Origin: Acinetobacter sp. C32I
GTDB taxonomy: Bacteria; Pseudomonadota; Gammaproteobacteria; Pseudomonadales; Moraxellaceae
Assembly: GCF_023702715.1 (NCBI RefSeq)
Contig: NZ_CP098480.1
Location: 1,364,001 to 1,428,000 of the forward strand
Length of the DNA stretch: 64,000 nt
Reading direction: 5' to 3'
The notes under the pieces are model-generated. The model was not told the origin of the DNA, searched no databases, and saw nothing but the letters and a program-made list of their open reading frames with translations. Of the stretch, positions 49,874 through 58,261 are shown one piece after another. The translations under genes were made by a program, and so were the position numbers. How positions within the stretch are numbered: position 1 is the stretch's first letter; every line of letters starts with the position of its first letter.

Positions 49874-49926
49874 GTTCTGCTCCAAATTTGTTATTCAACA
49901 CAATTCATCTTTTCACTGTAGTTAAT

Positions 49927-49942
49927 ACAAATTGGATGCCAG
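49927..49942 (-). promoter_or_regulatory. Weak sigma-54-like promoter of the FMN monooxygenase gene
   Basis: On the minus strand CTGGCATCCAATTTGT: the -24 GG is in place, but the -12 has GT instead of GC. It lies 54 bp before the ATG. Plausible because of the enhancer palindrome 77 bp further upstream. Confidence 0.45.
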
Positions 49943-50018
49943 TTTTTTTATTTATAAATATTAAATACTTAAATTATAGAGTATATCAGCACTGCTTAAG
50001 CGACAACATTATTCTGTT

Positions 50019-50048
50019 GAGCAGGTGTTGCAGAATCAACACCTGCTC
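50019..50048. promoter_or_regulatory. 30-bp perfect palindrome, putative enhancer of the monooxygenase gene
   Basis: Arms GAGCAGGTGTTG and CAACACCTGCTC (12 bp each) flank CAGAAT. The inner 7 bp of each arm equal the 47198-47217 site. It lies between the 3' end of adeS (65 bp) and the monooxygenase promoter. No U-tract follows on the adeS side, so I favour an activator site over a terminator, though it might do both. Confidence 0.6.
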
Positions 50049-50112
50049 TTTTATTTGCAGCAGATATTGGCTTAGAACAGCAATACGATTGGAATTGCGT
50101 AAATAAACTGGT

Positions 50113-51183
50113 TTAAGAGTGAACAGGTAGCGCGATACGAAACACACTATTATGATTCGGATTGCGATATTCAATTGTACCTTTATGCGCAATCACAATG
50201 GCATGCACAACCGCTAAACCTAGGCCTGTACCACCAAATTCTTTATTTCTCGACTGTTCCAATCTAAAAAAGGGATTAAATAAGTCGTGTTGATATTGTT
50301 CTGCAATCCCAGGTCCTTCATCAGCAATGTGTAGAATCCATTCATCTGAAACTCGCTTTGAGGAAATTTTTAATCTGCCTGCATTGGCATAGCGAATTGC
50401 ATTTTCGATCAAGGCCATCAAAACCTGCTCAATCCGCCGACGATCACAACGGATGGGGGGCTGCTCCATATCAAGTACGGGCACAATCTGGGCTTTCTCT
50501 AGACGATCTTCAAACAGCTTGAGCACTTTTTCAGTCAGCGCGTTCAAATCGACTAACTCATAATTTAATCTGAGCTGCTGATTCTCAACCAAACTCAAAG
50601 TACGTAGATCTTCGACCAAATGCGATAAGCCTTCCACCTGATTGAGCAAGCTTTTAAATAGCACTTCATCAGGCTGAAACACCCCATCTAGGACACCTTG
50701 TAAGCGTCCTTGCAAAATCGTAATTGGGGTTCTTAATTCATGCGCGATTGCTGCATTCCACACTTTCGCATTTTCAACCGAACTTTCCAGCTGCTGCGCC
50801 ATGTCATTAAAATTATGCATCAACTCAGCAATTTCAGTGGAATGGATTTGGCTGTCATCTGCCCGTGCGGAAAGGTCTCCCTGACTGATTTTTTTTGCAG
50901 CATCCGCCAAGAAATTAATCGGCTTAATAAAACGCTGTGCCAGATGCATCCCAATAATGATCGAAATGACACCCCCACAAAAAATCACCGTAGATAACCA
51001 GATCCAATCGACAAAATGAAATTCGGTCCAATCTTCCTGTAAAGAACTTAACGTAATCCAGCCGACATCAATGGCATAGTTATAAATAAAATAGCCAAGC
51101 AAAATAGAAAACAGCGTCACGCTTAAGTTCACAATACTTAATGCGACAAACAACTGCTTACTAATACCTGACTTGCTCTTCAT
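50113..51183 (-). CDS. adeS: AdeS-like sensor histidine kinase
   Basis: Encodes 356 residues (A. baumannii AdeS has about 357). TM helices lie near 9-32 and 58-82. A HAMP domain follows (RFIKPINFLADAAKKISQGDLSARADD). The HisKA domain has the phosphorylated His in AIAHELRTPITILQGRL (about 148). The ATPase domain has NAIRYANAG, DEGPGIAEQ and GGTGLGLAVVHA. It senses an unknown envelope signal and controls AdeR. Glycine 30 and the Thr after HELR, sites where substitutions raise pump expression in clinical A. baumannii, have the ordinary residues here. It is on the same strand as adeR but separated from it by 443 bp that hold an opposite-strand gene. Confidence 0.92.
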   Translation of the reverse strand: MKSKSGISKQLFVALSIVNLSVTLFSILLGYFIYNYAIDVGWITLSSLQEDWTEFHFVDWIWLSTVIFCGGVISIIIGMHLAQRFIKPINFLADAAKKISQGDLSARADDSQIHSTEIAELMHNFNDMAQQLESSVENAKVWNAAIAHELRTPITILQGRLQGVLDGVFQPDEVLFKSLLNQVEGLSHLVEDLRTLSLVENQQLRLNYELVDLNALTEKVLKLFEDRLEKAQIVPVLDMEQPPIRCDRRRIEQVLMALIENAIRYANAGRLKISSKRVSDEWILHIADEGPGIAEQYQHDLFNPFFRLEQSRNKEFGGTGLGLAVVHAIVIAHKGTIEYRNPNHNSVFRIALPVHS

Positions 51184-51220
51184 TGGGTTTTTCCAATCAA
51201 TTGATCGAATTTTTTCACAT

Positions 51221-51265
51221 GATACGCTGATTTTTTCAGAGATTTACACACTTTTTCCACACTTT
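51221..51265 (+). promoter_or_regulatory. Second AdeR-box region, upstream of the transporter-suffix gene
   Basis: GATACGCTGATTT followed ~12 bp later by CACACTTTTTCCACACTTT, a near copy of the element upstream of adeA (52392-52435). Two CACACTT units with an 11-bp period are seen. The box ends 65 bp before the ATG at 51331, compared with 66 bp for adeA. AdeR is known to bind a direct repeat of this kind in A. baumannii; binding here is inferred. Confidence 0.6.
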
Positions 51266-51330
51266 AAAGATCATCGCTCCTTAATCCTTGCTCAAAATAG
51301 CTGCATCAACGTTTTATTGATGTGACCAAA

Positions 51331-51597
51331 ATGCATAAATCAAAACTCAATTTGCGAAAAAAAATTGGCTTCATTCTTTTGGCCATAGTCATTGCTTACT
51401 GGCTTGTCTTTCCCATCATTCCATTCTTAGACATTCCGCATAAAGCATTAATCATGACAGGAATGGCGATTGGAGGTGAAATTCTGCTGTTAATCGTAAT
51501 TACCTTATTGGGTAAGGAATATTGGACAAAGATCAAAAATGGATTTAAACACTTGTTGACGCCCTTCAAGTCACAGAACAGAAAATCGGATCACTAA
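51331..51597 (+). CDS. Small membrane protein, 'transporter suffix'-type, between adeR and adeS
   Basis: Start at ATG 51331 (88 residues); the GTG nine bases earlier is less likely. Two membrane helices (KKIGFILLAIVIAYWLVFPIIPFL and HKALIMTGMAIGGEILLLIVITLLG) are followed by a basic tail (KEYWTKIKNGFKHLLTP). The pattern RKKIGFILLAI...FPIIPFL...GGEILLL...LLGKE..TKIK matches what I know as the transporter-suffix family, small proteins linked to membrane transporters. It runs opposite to adeR and adeS and lies wholly between them. The AdeR-box copy upstream suggests it belongs to the same regulon as adeABC and could modulate the pump. Function inferred only. Confidence 0.7.
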   Translation: MHKSKLNLRKKIGFILLAIVIAYWLVFPIIPFLDIPHKALIMTGMAIGGEILLLIVITLLGKEYWTKIKNGFKHLLTPFKSQNRKSDH

Positions 51598-51626
51598 AAT
51601 TAAAGTCATCGACATTCAAAATATGC

Positions 51627-52355
51627 TCACTCCACAGGATGATCCAAGCGATAACCGACCCCACGGACATTGATTAACATCTGTTGCAAACCGTGCTCTT
51701 CCAGTTTTTTTCTGAGCTTACTGACATGGCTATCCACCGTACGTTCCAAGGCATCACTATCAGGCAGACAGTGATTCATCAGTTCACTGCGGGTAAAGAC
51801 TTTGTGAGGATGGTCGATCATTAAAAGTAAAATTTTATACTCGGTCAGGGTAAGATTCAGCATGATTTTTCGATCTTGCTGATGCACATAGACGCTATGA
51901 ATATCGGTATTAATTTCGATATTTTTATAAACCAGATTCTTGTTGATTGCTTGTGTGTTTTGCTGGGCTCTTCTCAGAACAGCTTGCACCCGTGCCACCA
52001 CTTCATTCGGATTAAAAGGCTTCACCACAAAGTCATCAGCCCCAATTCTTAATGCCATGACCTTATCAATATCTTGATCCAGCGCCGTCAACATAATCAC
52101 AGGCGTTTGCGCTTTTTGACGGATTTTACTCAGCACCTCCCAACCATTCAGTTCTGGAAGTTTGATATCGAGCAGGATTAAATCTACCAGTTGGGCTGCA
52201 TGGATTTCTATCGCCTGCTTACCATTCATGGCACGAATCACCCGCATGCCTTCACGTTTTAAATAGTGCTCGATAATATCGCCAATCTCGTATTCATCTT
52301 CTACAACGAGAATCTGTTTATCACGGCAGTCAAAAGAAAATGAGGCGTCAAACAT
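51627..52355 (-). CDS. adeR: AdeR-like OmpR-family response regulator
   Basis: Encodes 242 residues. The receiver domain has the acidic pocket ILVVEDE, phosphoacceptor Asp in LILLDIKLPELNGW (about 63), TALD and KPFNP. The winged-helix DNA-binding domain ends TVDSHVSKLRKKLEEHGLQQMLINVRGVGYRL. Nearly identical in pattern to A. baumannii AdeR (247 residues). D20 and the Pro in VVKPF, known gain-of-function sites there, are unchanged. It activates the divergent adeABC operon and here is transcribed away from it. The cognate kinase gene is not directly adjacent. Confidence 0.93.
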   Translation of the reverse strand: MFDASFSFDCRDKQILVVEDEYEIGDIIEHYLKREGMRVIRAMNGKQAIEIHAAQLVDLILLDIKLPELNGWEVLSKIRQKAQTPVIMLTALDQDIDKVMALRIGADDFVVKPFNPNEVVARVQAVLRRAQQNTQAINKNLVYKNIEINTDIHSVYVHQQDRKIMLNLTLTEYKILLLMIDHPHKVFTRSELMNHCLPDSDALERTVDSHVSKLRKKLEEHGLQQMLINVRGVGYRLDHPVE

Positions 52356-52391
52356 GAATAAATCAGCACAAAGGTTCAGTCAAACTCGATG

Positions 52392-52440
52392 ATACGCTGA
52401 TTTATCTGTTGACCTCCACACTTTTTCCACACTTCAGCGA
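52392..52440 (+). promoter_or_regulatory. AdeR box in the adeR-adeABC divergent region
   Basis: GATACGCTGATTT followed by TCCACACTTTTTCCACACTT (52416-52435), a direct repeat of CCACACTT with an 11-bp period. It is the same type as the AdeR-binding repeat described between adeR and adeA in A. baumannii. It lies 66 bp before the adeA ATG. Confidence 0.75.
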
Positions 52441-52501
52441 TGTTGGTTACACAAAGTTCGAAAATAATGTCAGCATCAAAAACTCCCAAGGCATGGACAG
52501 A

Positions 52502-53671
52502 ATGCAAAAGCATCTATTACTTCCATTATTCTTATCCATCGGACTGGTGCTGCAAGCATGTGGTTCCAAAGATGCGGCTCCATCAGAAACACCATCTGCA
52601 AAAGTCACGGTACTCAATATGCAGCCACAATCGGTGAACTTTAGCGAGAACCTGCCTGCACGTGTGCAAGCATTTCGTACCGCTGAAATTCGCCCACAAG
52701 TCGGTGGCATTATTGAAAAAGTCCTGTTTACCCAAGGTAGTGAGGTAAAAGCGGGACAAGCCCTCTATAAAATTAATTCAGAAACTTTCCAAGCTGATGT
52801 GAACAGTAATCAAGCCTCGCTACACAAAGCAGAAGCAGAAGTAGTTCGTTTAAAAGTTCAATTAGAACGTTATGAACAATTATTGCCAAGCAATGCCATC
52901 AGTAAGCAAGAAGTCAGCAATGCGCAAGCCGAATATCGTCAAGCTTTGGCTGATGTTGCGCAAATGAAGGCCCTGCTCACGCGTCAAAACCTGAACCTAC
53001 AATATGCCACGGTACGGGCACCAATTTCAGGGCGTATTGGACAATCCTTTGTGACAGAAGGTGCATTGGTCAGCCAAGGTGATGCCAATACCATGTCAAC
53101 GGTTCAGCAGATCGATAAAGTCTATGTCGATGTAAAACAATCCATTAGTGAATATGAACGTTTACAAGCTGCATTACAAAGCGGTGAGTTATCCGCCAAT
53201 AATGAAAAAACCGTGCGCATTTCAAACAGTCATGGTCATCCTTATAACGTCAGCGCAAAAATGCTGTTTGAAGACATCAATGTCGATCCTGAAACCGGCG
53301 ATGTCACCATTCGAATTGAAGTGCAGAATCCAGAACGCAAACTCCTTCCAGGTATGTATGTCCGCGTCAATATCGACCGTGCTTCAGTGCCTCAAGCCTT
53401 GCTCGTTCCAGCCCAAGCAATTCAACGCAATATCAATGGTGATCCGCAAGTTTATGTGATCAATGCCAAAGGTGCGGCAGATATTCGTCCAATCGAATTG
53501 GGTCAACAATATGAGCAGTTCTACATTGCCAGCAAGGGTCTAAAAGCGGGTGACAAGATCGTGGTTGAAGGGGTTGAACGTATCCAGCCGAATCAAAAAC
53601 TGGAACTCGCCGCATGGAAAGCACCTGCTTCAAGTAATAGCACATCGCCTGCAACGCAAGGAGCTCAATGA
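52502..53671 (+). CDS. adeA: AdeA-like RND periplasmic adaptor lipoprotein
   Basis: Start set at ATG 52502 (MQKHLLLPLFLSIGLVLQAC), matching known AdeA; the ATG nine bases earlier is possible and the longer frame is not. 389 residues. The lipobox Cys is at 20. Barrel-sandwich halves (RPQVGGIIEKVLFTQGSEVKAGQALYKI and ATVRAPISGRIGQSFVTEGALV) flank an alpha-helical hairpin (HKAEAEVVRLKVQLERYEQLLPSNAISKQEVSNAQAEYRQAL). Beta-barrel and membrane-proximal domains follow. It bridges AdeB and the outer-membrane channel. Its stop overlaps the adeB start by four bases, so translation is coupled. Confidence 0.94.
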   Translation: MQKHLLLPLFLSIGLVLQACGSKDAAPSETPSAKVTVLNMQPQSVNFSENLPARVQAFRTAEIRPQVGGIIEKVLFTQGSEVKAGQALYKINSETFQADVNSNQASLHKAEAEVVRLKVQLERYEQLLPSNAISKQEVSNAQAEYRQALADVAQMKALLTRQNLNLQYATVRAPISGRIGQSFVTEGALVSQGDANTMSTVQQIDKVYVDVKQSISEYERLQAALQSGELSANNEKTVRISNSHGHPYNVSAKMLFEDINVDPETGDVTIRIEVQNPERKLLPGMYVRVNIDRASVPQALLVPAQAIQRNINGDPQVYVINAKGAADIRPIELGQQYEQFYIASKGLKAGDKIVVEGVERIQPNQKLELAAWKAPASSNSTSPATQGAQ

Positions 53672-56600
53672 TGATGTCACAATTCTTCATTCGCCGCCCC
53701 GTGTTTGCATGGGTGATTGCGATTTTCATTATCTTATTTGGGTTACTCAGTATTCCCAAACTACCGATTGCTCGCTTTCCAAGTGTCGCGCCACCACAAG
53801 TCAATATTAGTGCAACCTATCCAGGGGCAACGGCAAAAACCATCAATGACAGCGTTGTCACCTTGATTGAACGTGAATTGTCAGGTGTAAAAAACCTGCT
53901 CTATTACAGCTCAACCACAGATACATCGGGTACGGCAGAAATTTCTGCGACCTTTAAACCGGGCACTGATGTCGAAATGGCACAGGTCGATGTGCAAAAC
54001 AAGATCAAGGCCGTTGAAGCCCGTCTGCCGCAAGTGGTTCGCCAGCAAGGTTTACAGGTCGAAGCATCATCTTCAGGTTTCTTGATGTTGGTTGGAATCA
54101 ACTCACCCAATGGACAATATTCCGAAGTCGATCTCAGTGATTATCTGGTTCGTAATGTGGTGGAAGAACTGAAACGCGTTGAAGGTGTCGGTAAAGTACA
54201 ATCCTTCGGTGCAGAAAAAGCCATGCGCATTTGGGTTGACCCCAATAAACTGGTGTCATATGGCTTGTCCATTAGTGATGTCAATAATGCCATTCGTGAA
54301 AATAACATTGAAATTGCCCCGGGTCGTCTTGGCGACCTCCCTGCTGAACAAGGTCAACTCATCACTGTTCCCCTATCTGCTCAAGGACAATTGGGCAATG
54401 TGGAGCAATTCAGAAATATCAGCCTAAAAAGTAAAACCAGCGGTAGCGTGATCAAACTGTCTGATGTTGCCAAAGTCGAAATCGGCTCACAGGCGTACAA
54501 CTTTGCGATTTTGGAAGATGGTAAACCTGCTACTGCTGCCGCAATCCAGCTTAGTCCAGGCGCCAATGCCGTCAAAACAGCAGAAGGTGTCAGAGCCAAG
54601 ATTGAGGAATTAAAACTGAATTTACCAGAAGGCATGCAGTTCAGTATTCCTTATGACACGGCACCTTTTGTCAAAATTTCGATTGAAAAAGTGATTCATA
54701 CCTTACTTGAAGCCATGGTACTGGTTTTCATTGTGATGTATTTATTCTTGCATAATGTTCGTTATACCCTGATTCCAGCGATTGTTGCACCGATTGCGTT
54801 ACTCGGTACATTTGCGGTGATGCTATTGGCAGGTTTCTCAATCAACGTCCTGACCATGTTTGGTATGGTGCTGGCCATCGGGATCATTGTCGATGACGCC
54901 ATTGTAGTGGTGGAAAACGTCGAACGAATCATGGCAACTGAAGGACTGTCTCCAAAAGAAGCCACCTCCAAAGCCATGAAGGAAATTACCAGTCCGATTA
55001 TCGGGATTACCTTGGTACTTGCTGCGGTGTTCTTACCGATGGCCTTTGCCAGTGGTTCGGTCGGGATTATCTATCAGCAATTTACCTTGACCATGTCCGT
55101 ATCAATTCTGTTCTCGGCATTATTGGCATTAATCCTGACCCCTGCACTGTGTGCCACAATTCTGAAACCGATTGATGGTCATCATCAGAAAAAAGGCTTC
55201 TTTGCATGGTTTGATCGTAGCTTTGACAAAGTCACCAAAAAATACGAGTTGATACTGCTCAAAGTCATCAAACATAGCATTCCAATGATGGTGATCTTTG
55301 TGGTGATTACAGGCATTACCTTTGCAGGTATGAAATATTGGCCAACTGCCTTTATGCCAGAAGAAGACCAAGGTTGGTTCCTAACGTCGTTCCAATTGCC
55401 ATCGGATGCCACTGCTGAACGAACTCGAACTGTGGTCAATCAATTTGAAGAAAGCTTAAAAGATAATCCCAATGTGAAAAGTAACACTGCAATTTTGGGT
55501 TGGGGCTTTAGCGGTGCAGGTCAAAACGTAGCGGTGGCATTTACCACGCTCGCAGACTTTAAAGACCGTAGTTCAAGTGCGACTGAAATGACCAACGCGG
55601 TCAATGCCAGCATGGCAAACAGTAAGGAAGGTGCTACGATGGCTGTACTTCCACCAGCGATTGATGAGTTGGGTACCTTTTCAGGCTTTAGTTTACGTTT
55701 ACAAGACCGTGCCAACTTAGGTATGCCTGCGCTACTGGCTGCACAAGATCAACTCATGGAAATGGCTGCCAAGAACAAAAAGTTCTATATGGTCTGGAAT
55801 GAAGGTTTGCCACAAGGTGATAATATTTCACTGAAAATTGACCGTGAGAAACTCAATGCCTTAGGGGTGAAGTTCTCTGATGTCTCCGACATCATTTCGA
55901 CCTCAATGGGATCAATGTATATCAATGACTTTCCAAATCAAGGGCGTATGCAGCAAGTGATCGTACAGGTCGATGCCAAATCACGAATGCAACTCAAAGA
56001 TATTTTAAATCTGAAAGTTGCGGGTTCAAGCGGGCAACTGGTTTCTCTATCTGAAGTGGTGACGCCGCAATGGAGTAAAGCACCGCAACAATACAATCGC
56101 TATAACGGCCGGCCATCGTTGAGTATTGCAGGGATTCCGAACTTCGATACTTCATCTGGTGATGCCATGCGTGAAATGGAACAGCTGATTGCCAAATTGC
56201 CAAAAGGCATCGGTTATGAATGGACAGGTATTTCCTTACAGGAAAAGCAATCTGAATCACAAATGGCCTTCCTGCTGGCGCTATCAATGCTCGTGGTATT
56301 CTTGGTCTTGGCAGCTCTGTATGAAAGTTGGGCCATTCCCCTTTCCGTGATGTTGGTGGTGCCACTCGGTATTTTCGGTGCGATTGTGGCGATTATGTCT
56401 CGTGGCATGATGAACGATGTATTCTTTAAAATTGGTCTGATTACCATTATTGGTTTATCCGCCAAGAATGCGATCCTGATTGTCGAATTTGCCAAGATGC
56501 TGAAAGAAGAAGGTATGAGTTTAATTGAAGCCACTGTTGCTGCTGCAAAACTCCGTTTACGCCCGATCCTGATGACCTCACTTGCCTTTACTTGTGGTGT

Positions 56601-56781
56601 GATTCCATTGGTCATCGCTTCTGGCGCCAGTTCAGAAACCCAGCATGCCTTAGGTACAGGTGTCTTTGGCGGCATGATTTCTGCCACCATTCTGGCGATC
56701 TTCTTTGTTCCCGTGTTCTTCATTTTTGTTTTGGGTGCAGTTGAAAAGCTGTTTTCCTCGAAACAGAAAAATCCATCTTAA
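53668..56781 (+). CDS. adeB: AdeB-like RND efflux pump
   Basis: Encodes 1037 residues and, as I remember AdeB of A. baumannii, is the same over most of its length. Twelve TM helices with two large periplasmic loops (about 30-330 and 560-860). The proton-relay acidic pair sits in GIIVDDAIVVVENVERI (about 406-420), the TM10 Lys in GLSAKNAILIVEFAK, and the conserved terminal Ala-rich helix TLVLAAVFLPMAF. It is a trimeric H+-driven exporter of aminoglycosides, tigecycline, fluoroquinolones and other drugs in the A. baumannii group. Overlaps adeA by 4 bp. A hairpin lies in the 79-bp gap to adeC. Confidence 0.95.
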   Translation: MMMSQFFIRRPVFAWVIAIFIILFGLLSIPKLPIARFPSVAPPQVNISATYPGATAKTINDSVVTLIERELSGVKNLLYYSSTTDTSGTAEISATFKPGTDVEMAQVDVQNKIKAVEARLPQVVRQQGLQVEASSSGFLMLVGINSPNGQYSEVDLSDYLVRNVVEELKRVEGVGKVQSFGAEKAMRIWVDPNKLVSYGLSISDVNNAIRENNIEIAPGRLGDLPAEQGQLITVPLSAQGQLGNVEQFRNISLKSKTSGSVIKLSDVAKVEIGSQAYNFAILEDGKPATAAAIQLSPGANAVKTAEGVRAKIEELKLNLPEGMQFSIPYDTAPFVKISIEKVIHTLLEAMVLVFIVMYLFLHNVRYTLIPAIVAPIALLGTFAVMLLAGFSINVLTMFGMVLAIGIIVDDAIVVVENVERIMATEGLSPKEATSKAMKEITSPIIGITLVLAAVFLPMAFASGSVGIIYQQFTLTMSVSILFSALLALILTPALCATILKPIDGHHQKKGFFAWFDRSFDKVTKKYELILLKVIKHSIPMMVIFVVITGITFAGMKYWPTAFMPEEDQGWFLTSFQLPSDATAERTRTVVNQFEESLKDNPNVKSNTAILGWGFSGAGQNVAVAFTTLADFKDRSSSATEMTNAVNASMANSKEGATMAVLPPAIDELGTFSGFSLRLQDRANLGMPALLAAQDQLMEMAAKNKKFYMVWNEGLPQGDNISLKIDREKLNALGVKFSDVSDIISTSMGSMYINDFPNQGRMQQVIVQVDAKSRMQLKDILNLKVAGSSGQLVSLSEVVTPQWSKAPQQYNRYNGRPSLSIAGIPNFDTSSGDAMREMEQLIAKLPKGIGYEWTGISLQEKQSESQMAFLLALSMLVVFLVLAALYESWAIPLSVMLVVPLGIFGAIVAIMSRGMMNDVFFKIGLITIIGLSAKNAILIVEFAKMLKEEGMSLIEATVAAAKLRLRPILMTSLAFTCGVIPLVIASGASSETQHALGTGVFGGMISATILAIFFVPVFFIFVLGAVEKLFSSKQKNPS

Positions 56782-56860: not shown

Positions 56861-58261
56861 ATGTCTAAAGCGACTGTCTTATCTCGTGGCCTGCTTGTGT
56901 CTACGCTTTCGATTGCCCTAACAGCATGTATCAATCTGCAGGCACCCAAACCTGCGATCAAATCAGATATTTCAGAAAATTTTGCCCTTGCAAACACAGG
57001 CAACTCAATTGCAACTCAGGGCTATAAACAGTTCTTTGCCGATACACGCCTATTGCAAGTGATTGAAATCAGCTTAAATAACAACCGTGATTTACGTACT
57101 GCAACACTGAATATTCAACGTGCCCAACAGCAATATCAGATCAGTAAAAATGATCAGTTGCCTACTATTGGGGCAAATGCCAGTGCAGTTCGACAGGTGA
57201 ATCCGTCTGCGAACCCAAACAATCCCTATTCAACTTTTCAAGTCGGACTAGGAATGACGGCTTATGAACTGGATTTTTGGGGCCGAGTCAAAAGCTTAAA
57301 AGATGTGGCCTTAAATAATTACTTTGCGACCCAAAGTGCCAGAGAAGCCACGCAGATCAGTTTAGTCAGTCAAGTCTCACAAGCTTGGTTAGATTATGCC
57401 TTTGCTCAGGCCAACCTCAATCTTGCAGAACAAACCTTAAAAGCACAACTTGATTCCTATAACCTGAACAAAAAACGTTTTGAAGTCGGTATTGATAGCG
57501 AGGTTCCACTGCGTCAGGCACAAATTTCAGTTGAGACTGCACGAAATGATGTCGCCGCCTATAAAACCCAAGTGTCGCAGGCTCAAAATTTACTCAATTT
57601 ACTGGCTGGACAAAATGTTCCTCAGCAGCTCTTACCGAATCAAGCTGTAAAAACAATTAGTACTGAAACCACATTTGCAACTGGTTTAAGTAGTGACTTA
57701 CTGAATAACCGCCCCGACCTCAAAGCGACTGAATATCAATTACGTGCTGCTGGAGCCAATATTGGCGCAGCCAAAGCACGTATGTTCCCTACCATTAGCC
57801 TGACAGGTTCAGCTGGCTATGCCTCAACCGATCTTAAAGATTTATTTAAATCTGGTGGTTTTGCTTGGTCAATTGGACCAAGTATCGACCTGCCCATTTT
57901 CGATTGGGGGACGCGTAAAGCCAATATTAAAATTTCAGAAACTGAACAACAAATTGCACTGGCAGATTATGAAAAAGCCATTCAATCTGCGTTCCGTGAG
58001 GTTAATGATGCGTTGGCTGCACATGCCCATATTGACGAGCGTTTAGCGGCACAACGCCGTTTGGTCTCTGCCACTGAAACCACTTATAAATTATCCACGG
58101 CTCGATTTAGAGCGGGGATTGATAGTTATCTGACCGTGTTGGATGCACAACGTTCTGCTTATGCTGCACAACAAGGCTTACTGATGCTTGAACAAAGCAA
58201 GTTGAATAATCAGATTGAATTGTATAAAGCTTTAGGCGGTGGGCTATCTCAACATTCATAA
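56861..58261 (+). CDS. adeC: AdeC-like outer-membrane efflux channel (TolC/OprM type)
   Basis: Start at ATG 56861 with GGAG seven bases upstream; the longer frame uses TTG. 466 residues. A lipoprotein signal ends ALTAC (Cys about 23). Two outer-membrane-efflux-protein repeats are seen, with YELDFWGRVKSLKDVALNNYFATQ, LNNRPDLKATEYQLRAAGANIGAAKARMFPTISLTG and FRAGIDSYLTVLDAQRSAYAAQQ, the OprM/NodT family pattern. It completes the tripartite pump. Many Acinetobacter lack adeC and borrow AdeK; here it is present and intact. Same strand and tight spacing with adeB. Confidence 0.93.
   Translation: MSKATVLSRGLLVSTLSIALTACINLQAPKPAIKSDISENFALANTGNSIATQGYKQFFADTRLLQVIEISLNNNRDLRTATLNIQRAQQQYQISKNDQLPTIGANASAVRQVNPSANPNNPYSTFQVGLGMTAYELDFWGRVKSLKDVALNNYFATQSAREATQISLVSQVSQAWLDYAFAQANLNLAEQTLKAQLDSYNLNKKRFEVGIDSEVPLRQAQISVETARNDVAAYKTQVSQAQNLLNLLAGQNVPQQLLPNQAVKTISTETTFATGLSSDLLNNRPDLKATEYQLRAAGANIGAAKARMFPTISLTGSAGYASTDLKDLFKSGGFAWSIGPSIDLPIFDWGTRKANIKISETEQQIALADYEKAIQSAFREVNDALAAHAHIDERLAAQRRLVSATETTYKLSTARFRAGIDSYLTVLDAQRSAYAAQQGLLMLEQSKLNNQIELYKALGGGLSQHS

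Follow-up and report, generated by a model that had tools for sequence, protein, structure and literature searches.

The level of AdeABC, a major efflux pump in Acinetobacter, is set by the two-component system AdeRS. In Acinetobacter sp. C32I, the genes for the kinase AdeS and the regulator AdeR are separated by a small gene of opposite orientation, here named suf, and upstream of suf the core of the divergent adeR/adeA promoter recurs. On balance, we think it probable that this promoter copy was inserted together with suf and split the adeRS operon, that AdeR controls suf, that adeS gained a promoter of its own and that the Suf protein tunes the pump. The parts are of known kinds; the arrangement is new, and a search of open-licence articles returned no paper matching a small open reading frame in the adeR-adeS gap. 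The features of the locus are listed below by position in the window, the whole stretch of 64,000 nucleotides that was analysed.

50113..51183, minus strand: adeS, sensor histidine kinase (NF012226 AdeS_HK, 659 bits, cut-off 500)
51219..51224, minus strand: -10-like hexamer TATCAT facing adeS, a copy of the adeR-facing one, at 22-bp spacing to the repeat
51244..51264, plus strand: AdeR-type direct repeat, second copy, TTACACACTT-T-TTCCACACTT, 11-bp period
51331..51597, plus strand: suf, predicted small membrane protein of 88 aa with a transporter suffix domain (NF033684)
51627..52355, minus strand: adeR, response regulator (NF012227, 503 bits, cut-off 340)
52389..52394, minus strand: -10-like hexamer TATCAT facing adeR
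52414..52434, plus strand: AdeR-type direct repeat at adeA, CTCCACACTT-T-TTCCACACTT
52502..53671, plus strand: adeA, periplasmic adaptor, with the start given by the initial annotation (RND_mfp TIGR01730, 256 bits, scanned as 52508-53671)
53668..56781, plus strand: adeB, RND permease (NF000282, 1483 bits, cut-off 1250)
56864..58261, plus strand: adeC-like outer membrane channel (NF033142 AdeC, 871 bits, below the cut-off of 975)

The gene order is thus adeS(-), suf(+), adeR(-), adeA(+), with AdeR and AdeS both above their NCBIfam equivalog cut-offs. In the standard layout adeR and adeS are adjacent on the same strand with nothing between them; here an opposed gene fills a gap of 443 bp. This agrees, in coordinates and order, with the initial annotation, which had described an 88-codon plus-strand gene between the two minus-strand genes. 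No RNA family matched positions 49900-52700 at E 1 or better.

The near copy of the element upstream of adeA, which the same annotation had noticed before the small gene, is borne out. GATACGCTGATTT occurs at 51221-51233 and 52391-52403, in each case 13 bp from the following CACACTTTTTCCACACTT (51247-51264 and 52417-52434). This exact 18-mer is found nowhere else in the 4.19-Mb genome, and ungapped comparison of the two spacers scores at best 31, while 1000 dinucleotide shuffles reached no more than 16; the repeated element is therefore not a product of chance. Of the box coordinates given originally, the first start (51221) is correct while the second start and both ends lie one base too high, so that the boxes end 66 and 67 bp, rather than 65 and 66 bp, before the start codons at 51331 and 52502. 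A third exact GATACGCTGATTT lies, without the CACACTT repeat, inside a 473-aa open reading frame that by eye looks like an efflux outer-membrane protein. Similarity between the spacers downstream of the boxes is weak (26/65 in register, p 0.016), and a copied stretch reaching that far is not claimed. A broader AdeR regulon in this genome was also considered and rejected: the 18-mer has 10 matches at up to 3 mismatches, of which 8 carry 2-3 mismatches, against 8 for the reversed control, leaving nothing above the control beyond the two exact sites.

An excerpt of PMC9426577 reports that AdeR of A. baumannii binds a 10-bp direct repeat, AAGTGTGGAG, which is the complement of CTCCACACTT and is the kind of repeat that the initial annotation had named; excerpts of PMC5947904 and PMC11892822 also mention a direct repeat for AdeR. 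Given that suf itself is conserved in seven species and that the box before it is a copy, likewise conserved, of AdeR's reported target sequence, the proposed control of suf by AdeR is likely. The half-sites are, however, less perfect than at adeA. The suf box keeps the 11-bp period, and its half-sites match CTCCACACTT at 8/10 and 9/10 positions in the window and at 7-8/10 and 8-9/10 over the seven carriers. The first half-site is TTACACACTT in six carriers (8/10) and TTACACAGTT in the seventh (7/10), with TTA for CTC in all seven, whereas at adeA it is CTCCACACTT (10/10) in 35 of 41 loci. The suf site may therefore be weaker or changed, and this difference is the main fact in the sequence against equal regulation of suf and adeA.

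The duplicated stretch is larger than the box first described and takes in the core of the divergent adeR/adeA promoter. We examined 51 adeR loci, from 48 AdeS-bearing genomes, A. courvalinii, genome G560 and A. baumannii X4-300, and found the box in the adeR-adeA spacer in 41. In 33 of these 41 spacers, an adeR-facing -10-like hexamer (5/6 to TATAAT) stands at a distance of exactly 22 bp from the repeat, whereas at other offsets from 8 to 54 such a hexamer occurs in at most 4 of the 41, which are related and hence not independent. On the adeS side, TATCAT stands at the same 22-bp spacing in all seven carriers. The remaining ten loci, which score as AdeS but have no AdeR box beside adeR (L050, L053-L056, L063, L067, L075, L078 and L085), look like a different type of AdeRS-like locus because they lack the box and have adeB on the other side of adeS.

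A composite pattern joining the hexamer to the repeat, ATNATACG-N20-CACACTTTTTCCACA with up to 2 mismatches, gave 41 sites in 35 of 175 Acinetobacter genomes, and the reversed pattern gave none in the same genomes. Six suf carriers have two sites each, 29 genomes have one and 140 have none. Of the 29 single sites, 24 adjoin, by position, adeS loci from the AdeS search and the other five are in genomes outside the AdeS search sample. Seen from the other direction, the element is present at 2 mismatches in 29 of 48 AdeS-bearing genomes and absent from 19. Within the 147-bp adeS-suf spacer of the seven carriers, 29 of 33 element columns are invariant compared with 79 of 147 columns overall, a bias matched in none of 20000 permutations. 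The repeat region has 18 of 21 columns invariant, the interval from adeS to the -10 only 9 of 35.

Since the duplication extends to the adeR-facing -10-like element, which in the copy faces adeS at the same spacing, adeS probably has its own promoter. Against this, the adeS-facing -35 at 18 bp is poor by reading (TGTAAA, 3/6), and neither spacer held a promoter in a general sigma-70 scan (3 matches in the region, 7.3 expected). For leftward transcription from the adeR spacer, the best -35, at 18 bp, averages 3.95 of 6 over the 41 spacers and shares bases with the first AdeR half-site; AdeR could thus hold back adeR itself as well, and perhaps adeS. The conserved ATNATACG could serve a role other than that of a -10. 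At the start of the adeS mRNA (minus strand, 51180-51200 in the window and near 5850 in L118 and L120), we also noted a possible small hairpin, which would mask part of the AUG and the purines directly 5' of it; its energies are weakly better than those of shuffles (z -0.5 to -1.6, four of seven carriers folded), and G560 is without it.

The small gene itself is a constrained, open coding gene in seven species. Its protein matches NF033684, "transporter suffix domain", at 98.2 bits (cut-off 40) over profile positions 1-68 of 69, as the assignment to a transporter-suffix type had anticipated, and its sole Pfam match is below threshold (13.5 bits, cut-off 26.8). Two hydrophobic stretches are present, and the AlphaFold2 model has two helices (mean pLDDT 73.7). 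Over the seven carriers, pN/pS, left uncorrected as dS is undefined for saturated pairs, is 0.215 for suf, 0.133 for adeS, 0.079 for adeR and 0.073 for adeA, and codon position 3 holds 661 of 1102 pairwise differences in suf. A Foldseek search of the PDB with the model returned 16 matches up to E 10, none of them reaching 0.001. A profile search of PDB sequences gave a single weak match to cytochrome b (E 0.12), a search for phage carriage of suf had no match, and in open-licence articles no paper naming the suffix domain was found.

The search for the same gene order in other Acinetobacter genomes, suggested with the initial annotation, was successful. At E 0.001, suf protein was found in 7 of 175 genomes, as six full genes and a truncated remnant elsewhere in genome G008, and a set of named genomes held four suf loci, in A. 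higginsii, A. dispersus, A. proteolyticus and A. courvalinii. Taking the first three as G024, G010 and G142 and adding A. courvalinii, the carriers total seven, and in every one suf occupies the adeR-adeS gap. This gap measures 400-443 bp in the five carriers measured by script and 448 bp in the carrier G560, compared with -8 to 48 bp in 43 AdeS-bearing non-carriers; AdeS was present in 48 of 149 genomes sampled. AdeS relatives are also common in a plasmid collection (144 records, 87 from Acinetobacter, most below 60% identity), in which some A. baumannii "plasmid" records of 3.6-4.1 Mb are evidently chromosomes.

Beyond this genus, NF033684 was sought in a wider range of genomes. It matched 24 of 398 genomes in a sample of the phylum, 15 of them above the cut-off and most of those in one distant family, and the suf profile matched 2 of 369 genomes in a sample of the class, one being the window's own. 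A protein search gave 31 proteins, one apparently the window's own, with some named as coming from Acinetobacter species, A. bereziniae among them, and one as coming from Pseudoduganella. In A. baumannii 2021CK-01407, a relative 49% identical (L148, 8001-8255) lies about 660 kb from adeS, adjoining an AraC-like regulator and with no RND pump beside it, so the protein is not tied to the AdeABC pump. Its other neighbour, which has no NCBIfam match, we take to be a DUF2147 gene. The G008 remnant (L014, 7895-7987) is beside the same neighbour genes. Before the A. baumannii relative there is an AdeR-like half repeat, too weak to call. A more distant relative in G278 (L123, 4953-5546) is beside an efflux operon with a NodT-type channel and an MdtN-like adaptor. 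This protein, of 174-197 aa, lies between the efflux operon and an MctSR-like two-component pair and seems to hold two suffix-like repeats, the second judged by eye.

The locus was probably exchanged between Acinetobacter species, as the carriers are scattered in a tree of a 7-kb rpoB stretch (23 genomes, 6 carriers), where they require 5 changes; 214 of 500 shuffles are as low. In trees of the locus genes, built from the 33 of 51 loci with AdeS over 60% identical to that of the window, the carriers cluster more, requiring 2 changes by adeS and 3 each by adeR and adeA. Several branches in these analyses have weak support. Among the residues of AdeS, AdeR, AdeA and AdeB 1-630, none is both fixed in the seven carriers and absent from the eight closest non-carriers, which gives no hint of co-adaptation with the pump or the kinase.

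The stretch of about 400 bp between adeR and adeS thus consists of a copy of the adeR/adeA promoter core and suf; it splits adeRS and was probably inserted as a unit. Rightward, AdeR at the copied box would activate suf together with adeABC, as at adeA; leftward, the copied -10 would provide adeS with an adeR-type promoter, and kinase and regulator would stay matched though their genes are no longer adjacent. Suf would be a small inner-membrane partner that tunes AdeABC, which we hold to be its most likely role. We lean towards the pump as the target because of the family's NCBI name and the G278 relative beside an efflux operon; the small protein may thus be the fourth AdeR-controlled component, modulating AdeB, that the initial annotation had suggested.

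Suf may instead act on the kinase, as an AdeR-induced membrane protein whose binding to AdeS damps or tunes the kinase, in the manner of MgrB on PhoQ, for which an excerpt of PMC2789325 gives the precedent. The suf gene adjoins adeS in all seven carriers seen, its product is small, of membrane type and probably under a response regulator, and the carriers group slightly better by adeS than by the other genes compared. However, linkage alone would also give that grouping, AdeS has no fixed carrier-specific residue, and with 88 aa and two predicted helices Suf differs from the 47-aa MgrB. We consider feedback on AdeS rather unlikely. It is distinctly improbable that adeS is the main target of the box copy and suf a passenger brought with the duplicated promoter: a unit splitting adeRS would need a new adeS promoter, which the adeS-facing -10-like hexamer in all seven carriers could supply, and a suf relative exists elsewhere without an RND pump beside it, but suf is open and constrained in seven species and the repeat region is conserved as well.

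The initial annotation had further proposed that rightward transcription of suf, opposing readthrough from adeR to adeS, puts an antisense brake on AdeS. The orientation of suf fits, and a scan gave no terminator-like site between adeR and adeS. Nevertheless, no sequence feature specific to such a brake was found, and the adeS-facing -10-like hexamer, which that annotation missed, suggests a split adeRS operon instead: an adeS with its own promoter would not depend on readthrough, and the main regulatory effect would then be the split. We give the antisense brake almost no credence.

If the preferred reading of an inserted promoter and a pump-tuning Suf is extended, a promoter-plus-gene unit would have rewired a resistance-linked two-component system, giving separately tunable dosage of kinase and regulator and an AdeR-induced membrane modulator, and would have moved between species by recombination; we offer this broader view tentatively, the balance being somewhat against it. 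Treating adeRS as a simple operon would misjudge regulation in carrier species. The carriers are a natural experiment, with kinase and regulator seemingly on separate promoters and a third small gene probably under the same control, and they give an undescribed suffix-domain family its first testable context.

Among known systems, the adeRS-adeABC locus of A. baumannii is closest. Strain X4-300 (L151) has the same adeRS-adeABC genes, the divergent adeR/adeA spacer, the 11-bp-period CTCCACACTT repeat and the 22-bp spacing from the repeat to the adeR-facing hexamer, there TATGAT. Unlike in the window, its adeS starts 31 bp after adeR, with no gene or second promoter copy between. The match of suf to NF033684 (suffix_2_RND) is full-length; yet while the family name refers to the suffix of a transporter, suf is a stand-alone gene beside RND-pump regulators. 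In its proposed role, Suf would resemble AcrZ, the small protein that, according to an excerpt of PMC7267776, partners the RND pump AcrB in E. coli: both are small membrane proteins beside an RND pump, though Suf has 88 aa and two predicted helices. MgrB, described in an excerpt of PMC2789325 as a feedback peptide on the kinase PhoQ, is likewise a small membrane protein, and suf is probably under its system's own response regulator. MgrB has 47 aa and Suf has 88.
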